Translations under genes and position numbers: made by a program | Source: Paracoccus onchidii | GTDB lineage: Bacteria > Pseudomonadota > Alphaproteobacteria > Rhodobacterales > Rhodobacteraceae | Length of the DNA: 64,000 nucleotides | Reading direction: 5' to 3' | Assembly: GCF_028294535.1 (NCBI RefSeq) | Contig: NZ_JAQBIE010000011.1 | Location: forward strand, 1 to 64,000 | Part shown: positions 34,672 through 38,141 of the stretch, piece by piece | Numbering within the stretch: position 1 is the first letter of the stretch | Layout: each line of letters starts with the position of its first letter | The notes under the pieces: model-generated | The model's database searches: none | The model's input: the letters and a program-made list of their open reading frames with translations, nothing else | What the model was told of the DNA's origin: nothing

Positions 34672-37092
34672 TCAGTCGTCGCGGGGGCGCAGTTCGGTGA
34701 TTCCCAATGCCGCCGCGCGCGCAAGATCGGGGTCCAGCGACATGCCGATATATTCCCCACGGCGCCACAACCCCGCCAGATCGTCGTAATGGCGCGACAA
34801 CGGGTGCCCCGATTGGCCGGTTGAGGTAATGAAGACCGAGCTGTCGGGATCGGCCAGGTCATAAACCCCGCGAAATCCTGCTCCGGTCCGGGCACCATAG
34901 GGATGTTTCTGGCCCCCAAGCAGGCCGCTTTGGGCCATGGTGAAATCACCGCCCGAAATCGACTGTGTCAGGTTGACGATCCAGCCTAACCCCGCCAAGG
35001 AGCCCAGTCCCGGATGGGTATGGACGGCCTGATGCAGATCGCCCCAGCGCCAGCTTGTGACCTGGGGGCCGAAATCTTCGCTCAGATCAAGGATCGCAAG
35101 ATCCAGCGCCTGACGCGCGATGGTCGTGCAATCTTCCTGCGGGGCGCTTTGCACGATGTCGCACCAGCGGGCGGCACCATTCCGGTTGCGGAACACAGCA
35201 TCGATAAACGAAGGGTGCAACGACCTAATGTCGTCTGCGATCGGGCCCAGATCATCGCGGATCAGCCGATCCTGAAGCCGCTTCATCCAGGCGGCATAGA
35301 TCAGCGGTTCGGGCAGATGCTCACTCATGCTGCCGTCCCATTCGGCCAACAGAGACAGGGCGTCTTGTCGCTGGCGTTCGATGGTGCCGGGTGCTGCGGG
35401 GTCGCCGTTGAACCACAGATTCGCGCCAACCAACGGCAGCAGGGCACGCGCCGCAGGGCTGATGATATCCAGCTGCGTTGCGATGAAGCTGTCACGGGAA
35501 TGCACTTCGCGATCCTGAATAAGTCTGGTCAAGCGTCCCTGACGCAGAGAATCGGGTTGCTGTTCCTCGGTCGCGATCAGGATTCCCCCCGTCTTGTCGA
35601 TCAGGTCGCCGTCGGTATCACCGGGGGGCTGCCAGTTTGCCGCCTCTAGCCAGCCCGGCGCGGGCATTCTTCCGGCGGTTGGATGGTTCGCGGCGCGCCG
35701 CGGAATCCGGCCTGCCTGAATTTGCCTGATTCCGTCTGAATCCGCCAACGAGACTGAAATCGCGGGGGCCACCACGTCGCGCAACGCGTTCCTGGCGCTA
35801 TCGGTGTCAGGCGCGCGCATCAGGCCGATCAACGCGGACATCGTGCTGTCATCGGCCGACAATCCGGTCCAGCGCAGCACAGGGACATGGCCCATGGGCG
35901 TGACATCGCGCAGACCCGGATCAAGTCCGGGTATAACCGGGCCGTTTTCGGTTTCCCGCAGGATGATGGCCTGCGGTTGCCCATCGAGGATCCGGATAAC
36001 CTCGTTCTGCGTGGCGAAATCGGTCCAGCCGTTTCGCCCACGATAGCGGTCCGGGTTCCCGGGCTGGATTTCCTCGATGGCGATATCGGCGTCGTCGACT
36101 GGGGTCGGTGCGATCCCCCAGGCCAAATGCGGATTGCGCCCCGACAGAACGGCAGGAATGCCCGGAATTGTCGCGCCGATCACACCGCCTGAGGACAGCT
36201 GCAGACGCGCCAGATAGAATAATGACGGCGCCGTCAGCGGGGTGATGATATCGTTGGCCAGCAATGCGCCGCCCGCAGCGGTTCGTTCAGGAGATGCGGC
36301 AAATCCGTTGGCGCCCAAGCCCTGACCGGGTTTCAGAAAAGTCGAAAGCACGGTCCCGTTGGACGAGGGCGAGGTCTTGGCAGGCGTTGCAAACCGTGCG
36401 CCGGGAAACAGCGACGCATAGACCGGTTTTTCTGATGATGTGGCTGCGGCGTCCAACAGATCCGGTCCGTATTGCGGGGACACGAGGGACAGGCGCGCGC
36501 GCAACACCTCATCCGCGACGGCATTGGTGGCGCTTGCGGCAATCAGTTTGAGGATTGCAAGGGAATCGGTGGGTTGCCAGTAGGAAATCTGATGCGGGAA
36601 CAGAAAGAATTCGGGCGCGCCACGTCCCAGCGCGTTTTCATTCACCTCGGCGATCCATTGGTTCACCCCGGCCGCATAGGCATCGAGCGCGGCGCGCGTG
36701 TCGTCGTCCTGAACGTCAAGGGAGGCGCGTGCATTGCGGTAAAGGCCCAACCTCCGGGCCAGGTCGTCGCTTGCGAAGGCCCCGGGGCCTTGTATCTCGG
36801 ACAGGCGCCCTTGGGCCGCGCGGCGCAGCAATGTCATCTGAAACAGCCTGTCCTGAGCATGGGCGACGCCAAGCGCAAAAAACATGTCCTTGTCACTCTG
36901 GCCGAAGATATGGGGAACATTCTCGGTGCTGCGCACGATTTCGACCGGAGCGCTCAATCCATCCATCCGATAGGTCGCATCATAGTCAGGCAGCGAGCGG
37001 ATCGAAAAATACCAGGTCAGAACCGCGCCCAGCAACAACAACAGGATAAGGGCTATGGTCAGCCTGAGCAGCCAGCGAAATATTGTCAGCAT
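34672..37092 (-). CDS. Penicillin acylase family protein lacking the catalytic Ser
   Basis: 806-aa member of the Ntn-hydrolase penicillin/acyl-homoserine-lactone acylase family. It has an N-terminal membrane helix (about residues 8-28), an alpha-chain-like region with GVAHAQDRLFQMTLLRRAAQG, and the start of the beta chain in GANGFAASPERTAAGGALLAN. Active members have Gly-Ser-Asn there, and the Ser becomes the N-terminal nucleophile after self-cleavage; here codon GCC at 36310-36312 encodes Ala261. DPHL is also replaced (ANDIITPL). Unless this is a sequencing error, the protein probably cannot self-process or act as an acylase. Divergent from the 37275 gene. Confidence 0.85.
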   Translation of the reverse strand: MLTIFRWLLRLTIALILLLLLGAVLTWYFSIRSLPDYDATYRMDGLSAPVEIVRSTENVPHIFGQSDKDMFFALGVAHAQDRLFQMTLLRRAAQGRLSEIQGPGAFASDDLARRLGLYRNARASLDVQDDDTRAALDAYAAGVNQWIAEVNENALGRGAPEFFLFPHQISYWQPTDSLAILKLIAASATNAVADEVLRARLSLVSPQYGPDLLDAAATSSEKPVYASLFPGARFATPAKTSPSSNGTVLSTFLKPGQGLGANGFAASPERTAAGGALLANDIITPLTAPSLFYLARLQLSSGGVIGATIPGIPAVLSGRNPHLAWGIAPTPVDDADIAIEEIQPGNPDRYRGRNGWTDFATQNEVIRILDGQPQAIILRETENGPVIPGLDPGLRDVTPMGHVPVLRWTGLSADDSTMSALIGLMRAPDTDSARNALRDVVAPAISVSLADSDGIRQIQAGRIPRRAANHPTAGRMPAPGWLEAANWQPPGDTDGDLIDKTGGILIATEEQQPDSLRQGRLTRLIQDREVHSRDSFIATQLDIISPAARALLPLVGANLWFNGDPAAPGTIERQRQDALSLLAEWDGSMSEHLPEPLIYAAWMKRLQDRLIRDDLGPIADDIRSLHPSFIDAVFRNRNGAARWCDIVQSAPQEDCTTIARQALDLAILDLSEDFGPQVTSWRWGDLHQAVHTHPGLGSLAGLGWIVNLTQSISGGDFTMAQSGLLGGQKHPYGARTGAGFRGVYDLADPDSSVFITSTGQSGHPLSRHYDDLAGLWRRGEYIGMSLDPDLARAAALGITELRPRDD

Positions 37093-37274
37093 AGGGGTGT
37101 TTTTTCCATGGACCGGTCGCGGAAGCCTTGGCGCTGGTTGCGGGATCTTGACCCGGGCGCGCGGGGGTGTTGGTGTGACCCATAAGACAGCCGCGCGACC
37201 ATTTCAACGGAGCGCTTGGTCGCGCCATGCGCGAAATGCCGGGCGGTGTGCAAATTAACGGGAAGGAAGTTGCG

Positions 37275-38141
37275 ATGGCCAAGTTGGCATTTCTGGGTCT
37301 TGGGGTGATGGGCTTTCCGATGGCCGCCCATCTGAAGAATGCGGGCCATGATGTCACGGTCTATAACCGCAGTTCATCCAAGGCCGATGCCTGGGTCAAG
37401 GCCAATGGCGGGCAGAGTGCGCAAACCCCCGGACAAGCGGTCGCGGGGGCCGAGTTCGTCTTTGCCTGCGTCGGCAATGACGATGACCTGCGTCAGATCT
37501 GTGTCGGGGATGACGGTGCCTTTTCCGGCATGTCCGACGCGGCGGTCTTTGTGGATCACACAACGGTTTCCGCCGCCGTCACACGAGAACTGGCAGAACA
37601 GGCCAGGGGGCTTGGTCTGGGCTATGTCGATGCACCAATCTCGGGCGGGCAGGCGGGTGCCGAGAACGGTCAACTGTCCGTGATGTGTGGCGGTGCACAG
37701 GCGGATTTCGACCGGGCTGCCCCCGTGATTGGGGCTTATGCCAAGATTTGCCGGCTTATGGGGGATGTCGGGGCCGGACAGATGACCAAGATGTGCAACC
37801 AGATCGCGATTGCGGGACTGGTGCAGGGCCTGTCTGAATCTCTGGCCTTCGCGCAAAAGGCCGGTCTGGAGATCGAAAGCGTGGTCGAGGTGATCAGTCA
37901 GGGCGCTGCGGGCAGCTGGCAGATGGAGAACCGGCACAAGACCATGGCCGCAGGTGAATTCGAACATGGTTTCGCCGTGAACTGGATGCGCAAGGATCTG
38001 GCGATTTGCCTTGCCGCCGCCGATGAGGTGGATGCATCCTTGCCCGTGACGGCGCTGGTGGATCAGTTCTACAAAGAAGTTCAGGGCATGGGCGGCGGAC
38101 GATGGGACACCTCGGCGCTGATCGCCCGGCTGACGCGTTAG
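37275..38141 (+). CDS. 3-hydroxyisobutyrate dehydrogenase / tartronate semialdehyde reductase family
   Basis: 288-aa NAD(P)-dependent beta-hydroxyacid dehydrogenase. Rossmann motif KLAFLGLGVMGFPMAAHL with the family-defining GxGxMGxxMAxxL, substrate-site DAPISGGQAGAENGQLSVM, catalytic Lys in GAGQMTKMCNQ, and HGFAVNWMRKDLAICL. The start at 37275 follows GGAAGGAAG; an ATG at 37227 is less likely. Candidates are valine catabolism (3-hydroxyisobutyrate) or glyoxylate metabolism; neighbours do not decide. The acyl-CoA ligase downstream hints at branched or short-chain acid catabolism. Confidence 0.88.
   Translation: MAKLAFLGLGVMGFPMAAHLKNAGHDVTVYNRSSSKADAWVKANGGQSAQTPGQAVAGAEFVFACVGNDDDLRQICVGDDGAFSGMSDAAVFVDHTTVSAAVTRELAEQARGLGLGYVDAPISGGQAGAENGQLSVMCGGAQADFDRAAPVIGAYAKICRLMGDVGAGQMTKMCNQIAIAGLVQGLSESLAFAQKAGLEIESVVEVISQGAAGSWQMENRHKTMAAGEFEHGFAVNWMRKDLAICLAAADEVDASLPVTALVDQFYKEVQGMGGGRWDTSALIARLTR

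Follow-up and report, generated by a model that had tools for sequence, protein, structure and literature searches.

Acylases whose nucleophile, the serine at residue 1 of the beta chain (B1), has been replaced are known from solved structures. By their entry titles, 4pem is a penicillin G acylase S1G and 5ubk an inactive PvdQ S1A/N269D, both laboratory-made variants in which the fold is retained. The closest solved relative of the protein described here, the D-succinylase of Cupriavidus sp. P4-10-C (7eby, 7ea4), keeps the Gly-Ser-Asn and the Asn motif, and MacQ of Acidovorax (5c9i, 4yf9), an acylase of N-acyl homoserine lactones (AHLs) and penicillin and a distant relative with the same fold, has the serine and self-cleaves in its wild-type form. 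Catalytically inactive N-terminal nucleophile (Ntn) folds also occur in an unrelated family, in the proteasome alpha subunits, whose complex contains active partners. There they are a structural, gate-keeping part of a multi-subunit complex (PMC8665760). Here we analysed an open reading frame (ORF) of Paracoccus onchidii, at positions 34672-37092 of a stretch of 64,000 nucleotides (contig NZ_JAQBIE010000011.1, positions 1 to 64,000; the whole stretch is called the window), encoding a penicillin-acylase-family protein (PF01804) with alanine at B1. The original prediction, made from the letters of the window, proposed a pseudoenzyme; the finding is real and larger than that, a genus-wide pseudoenzyme clade with three catalytic losses and, by the tree, a single origin. 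The losses are natural and genus-wide, in contrast to those of 4pem and 5ubk, and the substitutions at B1 and at the oxyanion Asn, of the same class, are joined by a proline at B69 and by a change in the loop carrying AsnB241. Unlike the D-succinylase and wild-type MacQ, the protein lacks the serine, and unlike the proteasome subunits, it is the sole member of PF01804 in the window genome. The elements of the gene are as follows.

34672-37092, minus strand: penicillin-acylase-family pseudoenzyme, ORF of 806 aa with an ATG start and no internal stop (PF01804; AlphaFold2 model)
36997-37092, minus strand: putative N-terminal membrane anchor, residues 1-32, modelled as a single helix over residues 2-32 and showing excess conservation; insertion in the membrane is suggested by its hydrophobic sequence
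36340-36372, minus strand: a portion of the former spacer (residues 241-251), with a predicted local distance difference test (pLDDT) score below 50
36310-36312, minus strand: B1 codon GCC, Ala261 replacing the nucleophile Ser, by profile and structure alignment
36244-36249, minus strand: B22-B23, Ile282-Ile283 (Pro-His in most relatives), a weak marker, B23 varying between His and Gln in Paracoccus
36106-36108, minus strand: B69 codon CCG, Pro329, leaving the oxyanion hole without its backbone NH
35542-35604, minus strand: remnant of the AsnB241 loop, residues 497-517, with Glu509-Glu510 replacing Asn-Asn
35566-35568 and 35563-35565, minus strand: codons GAG and GAA of Glu509 and Glu510, respectively

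The protein belongs to PF01804 both by homology and by its predicted Ntn acylase fold. In a Pfam search, residues 49-789 matched positions 1-671 of the 675 in the penicillin amidase profile with 568.7 bits, a near-complete match that, together with the uninterrupted frame, agrees with the earlier view that the remainder of the 806-aa protein is intact. Against NCBIfam NF051460, which describes PvdQ-type AHL acylases, the score was 33.6 bits, below the curated cut-off of 950, and a genome search found the product of this ORF as the only PF01804 protein of the window genome. The AlphaFold2 model (pLDDT 85.7; predicted template modelling score, pTM, 0.88) is a confidently predicted acylase-type fold, and the fold retained in 4pem and 5ubk fits it. 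The best solved matches were 7ea4 and 7eby (Z 43.6 and 43.1, 2.7 Å over 694 residues and 27% identity by VIA; Foldseek TM 0.78/0.83 to 7eby), followed by uncleaved or precursor cephalosporin acylases and uncleaved MacQ. A second model, that of the active orthologue of Rhodobacter capsulatus, had a pLDDT of 81.1. Active Rhodobacteraceae orthologues (R. capsulatus L260, Thioclava, Gemmobacter; PF01804) are 51-57% identical to the window protein (29 aligned) and alike in length, N-terminal helix and gene neighbour, but have SerB1, a residue other than Pro at B69 and AsnB241 with its full loop, elements that the Paracoccus proteins are without.

Profile A3, built from 29 active Rhodobacteraceae orthologues and six Paracoccus rows, placed its position 261 on the first residue of many solved beta chains, and in the structure alignment (VIA-align) the first aligned pair was model residue 261 with beta-chain residue 1 in most of the separate beta chains listed. 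Because both alignments make this pairing, Ala261, encoded by GCC, occupies the SerB1 position, and the central observation of the original prediction was correct. The family motif NTNN aligned with Asn239-Trp240-Asn241-Asn242 of 7rep, an engineered Kluyvera penicillin G acylase variant (numbers counted from the chain coordinates). Around B1 the window protein reads GLGANGF, and then LLANDII up to B23.

The distribution of these changes was read in several sets of loci. The genus set holds 128 Paracoccus loci including the window's own, 121 of which were readable at B1. The family set comes from 295 sampled Rhodobacteraceae genomes, nearly all of different genera, in which 99 loci were read (the 29 best beside the window, 30 low-scoring and 40 from the listed matches), 98 being readable at B1. 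The named-species set consists of the best 80 of at least 580 relatives, 15 from Paracoccus and 65 from other genera; all of the former and seven of the latter repeat rows of the other two sets and are not independent. Reduction of redundancy at 90% identity gave a set of 90 inactive sequences and 147 active ones. The frame-broken loci L145 and L157, and all rows of at most 700 aligned columns, were left out of the sets used for conservation, for the ratio of nonsynonymous to synonymous substitution rates (dN/dS) and for the tree. The gene itself was matched in 123/125 Paracoccus genomes and in 289/295 of the sampled Rhodobacteraceae genomes.

At B1 the readable Paracoccus loci carried Ala (81), Gly (39) or, in the frame-broken L157, Arg, and never Ser, whereas Ser was present in 97 of the 98 family loci (L194, which differs, represents a fragment of an interrupted copy) and in 7/7 loci of the class outgroup. 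Since none of 121 readable loci has Ser at B1, Ala261 is neither a sequencing error nor a recent mutation, an outcome that had been named as fatal to the prediction, and the loss conserved among orthologues marks a genuine pseudoenzyme clade. The expectation of Gly-Ser-Asn in active members was right for the Ser but, in Rhodobacteraceae, mostly not for the Gly, the residue before the Ser being usually Ala there (95/98 readable family loci). Proline has no backbone NH, so the B69 element of the oxyanion hole is lost where it stands. Beside the window, 119 Paracoccus loci were readable at B69 and 117 of them have this residue; none of the 98 family, seven class and 65 named non-Paracoccus loci that were readable has it. 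In the acylase mechanism (PMC4069103), two groups hold the intermediate, the Ala69 main chain and the Asn241 side chain. The AsnB241 motif was absent from all 122 readable Paracoccus loci and present in 97/97 readable family loci; in the non-redundant set, Asn stood at B241 in 0/90 inactive vs 147/147 active sequences. Altogether, 114 of the 115 fully readable Paracoccus loci, the window excluded, had lost B1, B69 and B241, the exception (L097) having Ser at B69 with the other two elements absent, while all three were intact in every fully readable family (95/95), class (7/7) and named non-Paracoccus (65/65) locus. All 15 named Paracoccus loci were of the inactive form. A functional Ntn acylase is expected to present Ser, Thr or Cys at B1, a backbone NH at B69 and Asn at B241, where the window protein has Ala261, Pro329 and Glu509; the last two are lesions beyond those originally noticed, and stronger than the change at B22-B23.

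Two other features of the active site were considered and set aside. The change of Asn-Asp-Pro-His to Asn-Asp-Ile-Ile, to which the original prediction had drawn attention, is present, but as a lesion it is the weakest part of that proposal. His23 is counted among the oxyanion-hole residues of PvdQ in the available part of a published study (PMC5474475); however, 112 of the 121 readable Paracoccus loci have either His (44) or Gln (68) at B23, and 7rep, a penicillin G acylase, has Gln there, so that loss of His at B23 was demoted as a key lesion. The residue before B1 is Ser in 48 of the 121, often within GASANGF (e.g. L085, L087-L094), as if one residue had been inserted behind the former Ser. 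We rejected this Ser as a shifted nucleophile: elsewhere the position holds Gly (62), Thr (7), Ala (2), Trp (1) or Glu (1), and among the loci with Ser 46/48 have Pro at B69 and 0/47 readable ones have Asn at B241. In one subgroup (L132-L144), Ala/Pro-rich low-complexity inserts of varying length replace the lost catalytic loop (residues 497-517), the region matching residues 490-517 reaching up to 156 residues.

In a FastTree phylogeny of 244 rows, from which residues 240-290 and 490-530 were excluded and the B69 column kept, the inactive forms made up one side of one branch (local support 100, no bootstrap being used), and a single change was needed on the tree. Upstream of the gene, in opposite orientation and within the fetched flank, lies a reductase gene, which in the window is:

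37227-38141, plus strand: divergent neighbour, hydroxyisobutyrate dehydrogenase-type NAD(P)-dependent reductase (Pfam PF03446 and PF14833)

The same arrangement was found in 80/80 genus-set and 15/15 named Paracoccus loci, and in 30/40 family loci and 56/65 named others. Given the single-branch tree together with the shared divergent neighbour, the Paracoccus gene is most likely the orthologue of the active genes rather than a new copy. Of the 123 Paracoccus genomes in which PF01804 was matched at all, 94 had exactly one match. In the other 29 (e.g. G084, G025, G056 and G077) there was more than one, some being pieces of one gene; extra full-length paralogues in these genomes may be active acylases. 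One Paracoccus genome (G104, 95% complete) had no match to the gene or to PF01804, an absence that is unsure in an assembly of ~620 contigs. Five Paracoccus records (H1-H5, from P. pantotrophus, P. denitrificans, P. versutus (two) and P. ferrooxidans) carry a copy of 63-64% overall identity, placed on a 1.5-2.2 Mb replicon that was deposited as a plasmid. The annotation given to such genes, for example in H5 (P. ferrooxidans), is penicillin acylase family protein.

Pairwise dN/dS in 14 close pairs each was 0.058-0.180 (mean 0.112) for the inactive and 0.042-0.191 (mean 0.101) for the active genes, and a maximum-likelihood codon model gave omega values of 0.133 (18 sequences, 788 codons) and 0.113 (18 sequences, 778 codons), respectively. 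Among the 123 Paracoccus copies, 115 were full-length and open, six were cut by contig ends and two were broken. Purifying selection has thus continued after the loss, at about the strength seen in the active orthologues, as the first reading of this gene as kept rather than decayed had supposed, in a clade that has lost its catalytic residues throughout and whose fold is, by prediction, kept.

Conservation was then compared position by position. The 147 active sequences share 177 positions that are at least 95% conserved; at 148 of these, the residue is retained by at least 90% of the 90 inactive sequences. Among the 75 that are at least 99% conserved in the active set, 68 are kept, four still have the same majority residue at 84-89%, and the three that are replaced are B1, B241 and B242. 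We expressed shifts as residuals, that is, conservation relative to the expectation from the active set by regression. For residues 495-520 the residual was -0.312 in the inactive clade and -0.199 to -0.276 in three inactive subclades, vs -0.026 to +0.010 in three active clades of similar diversity. For helix 1-32 it was +0.126 in the inactive clade and +0.058 to +0.121 in its subclades, vs -0.036, +0.015 and -0.029 in the active clades. Within this helix, Thr12, Leu25, Trp27 and Phe29 are nearly fixed in the inactive clade. An excess over residues 547-600 (+0.097) was not used, since it is partly shared by two of the three active clades (+0.066, +0.049). The region 205-260, which contains the spacer remnant, has a median length of 56 in inactive and active groups alike.

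We believe that an uncleaved, membrane-anchored pseudoenzyme with a non-catalytic role is the best explanation of these results as a whole, and a reasonably probable one. Classical acylase catalysis has very probably been lost. Because the cutting machinery appears to be gone genus-wide and yet the remaining protein is carefully preserved, the protein probably does a job other than catalysis; that this job is specifically one of scaffold or partner is about an even matter. Catalysis would have been lost once, on the branch leading to Paracoccus, and the protein would then have persisted as a pseudoenzyme. No self-cleavage would occur where B1 is Ala or Gly, and the product would be one chain made of the membrane helix, the uncut spacer and the intact acylase body. 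Without the B69 NH and AsnB241, no classical oxyanion hole would form and no classical acylase chemistry would be expected. The putative anchor and the folded, presumably periplasmic body may then serve other envelope components as a tethered partner, whether structural or regulatory, a reading that we favour because the body has been retained and the active-site loop has not, and because constraint on the anchor helix has increased. More tentatively, and at somewhat less than even chances, a core Rhodobacteraceae acylase may have been turned, once and for the whole genus, into a membrane-anchored scaffold that was stripped of its three catalytic elements as selection rose on the membrane helix. 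The original description of a membrane-anchored pseudoenzyme under purifying selection is therefore supported at the level of the clade, with the anchoring read from the sequence.

Several observations weigh against this explanation. Mean dN/dS is slightly higher in the inactive pairs, and in the four closest pairs of each group the active values (0.042-0.057) all lie below the inactive ones (0.068-0.112), so selection on the inactive copies may be slightly weaker than on the active. Two Paracoccus genomes (G023 and G121) have frame breaks or stops in the gene, which may be dispensable in some strains, or these assemblies may be faulty; some matches outside Paracoccus are also listed with one stop. 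Among the readable Paracoccus loci, only L097 and L145 have Ser rather than Pro at B69, and L145 belongs to G121, where the gene has in-frame stops. The signal in the anchor is a regression residual. The strongest opposing fact is that Ala at B1 alone is no proof of inactivity, since the MacQ S210A mutant, though uncleaved, is reported to be active on C8-C12 and OC10-OC14 AHLs, not on penicillin G, and the accessible part of that report mentions no change in an oxyanion residue (PMC5566955).

Among the other explanations, the one that survives best is that an older, non-catalytic role of the ancestral acylase was kept and that catalysis became dispensable once the substrate vanished in the Paracoccus stem, which we regard as possible although clearly less likely than not. 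The match of the gene in 289/295 Rhodobacteraceae genomes, the divergent reductase that neighbours both active and inactive genes and the 148/177 conserved positions kept are all consistent with it. However, the constraint on the helix is raised in the inactive clade alone, which hints at a change of role and not at mere retention, and the literature search yielded no functional data for either group.

The binding or decoy role suggested by the original prediction, in which the dead pocket would still bind acylated ligands and sequester or sense them, is unlikely and not supported: the AsnB241 loop is shrunk or replaced, and the excess constraint falls on the N-terminal helix. It is true that inactive PvdQ S1A/N269D was crystallised with substrate, according to the entry title of 5ubk, and that some mapped pocket positions are more uniform in the inactive set (B31 Leu 89/90, B57 Ser 77/90, B154 Leu 89/90). 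Yet sixteen mapped positions, from what we take to be the pocket of penicillin G acylase and placed by hand on the profile-A3 alignment, are on average less conserved than expected in the inactive set (mean residual -0.079, with 3.5% of random sets as low). As a test this is weak, and it was not retained as proof that ligands are not bound: a comparable drop occurs in one active clade (-0.097), whereas it is nearly absent from two of the three inactive subclades (-0.006 and -0.027). The family residue is also lost at B24, B71, B177, B178, A145 and A146, and the changes at B154 (small to Leu) and B177 (polar to aliphatic) look like the filling of a cavity and not its keeping, although the pocket may have changed for a new ligand. 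Matches to the LuxI-type family PF00765 in 122/125 Paracoccus genomes suggest that an acylated signal may be near; several of them are partial, and gene content of this kind cannot separate the hypotheses.

It is improbable that the protein is an unconventional enzyme, still able to inactivate AHLs and other acyl amides although it has no serine nucleophile. The MacQ S210A mutant provides a precedent, and the position of ArgB263 (Arg517) is Arg in 88/90 inactive sequences. In Paracoccus, however, the loss at B1 is accompanied by that of the oxyanion Asn and of the B69 NH, the constraint on the active-site loop is gone, and no new conserved nucleophile appears, B1 being Ala or Gly and B2 Asn (69/90), Ser (12) or Thr (7). 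Further support might be sought in the quorum-sensing inhibition of Paracoccus sp. JM45, for which the authors suggest that AHLs may be degraded by a penicillin amidase encoded on scaffold 1 (PMC6328668). The corresponding locus (L237, JM45 Scaffold1) is of the inactive form, reading LGGNAF, with Gly at B1 and TTEE in place of the Asn motif, and the genome matched at the coordinates of its contig (G079, by these coordinates presumably JM45) has this one PF01804 protein only. On this basis the attribution of AHL degradation to it should be treated with caution. Lastly, a decaying gene or sequencing artefact is barely conceivable, for while the frame is broken or interrupted by stops in two of the 123 Paracoccus copies, Ala or Gly stands at B1 in 120/121 readable loci, omega is 0.13, and 115/123 copies are full length, six of the remaining eight being truncated where a contig ends.

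Pseudoenzymes as such are well established, and we found none described for the penicillin acylase family in the literature searched. That search covered titles and the openings of abstracts, with most subscription journals outside its reach; within it, inactive penicillin-acylase homologues were not described, nor was the Rhodobacteraceae gene as such, the sole relevant mention being that of JM45 in the accessible part of PMC6328668. Likewise, the available part of a report on penicillin G breakdown by a Paracoccus (PMC8554860) held no gene assignment that we could find. The gene offers a clean natural comparison: over 100 copies of each kind, active and inactive, were read here, sharing a gene neighbourhood and apparently separated by one event. 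If the proposed explanation is true, the conserved role of this core Rhodobacteraceae protein may be partly non-catalytic across the family.

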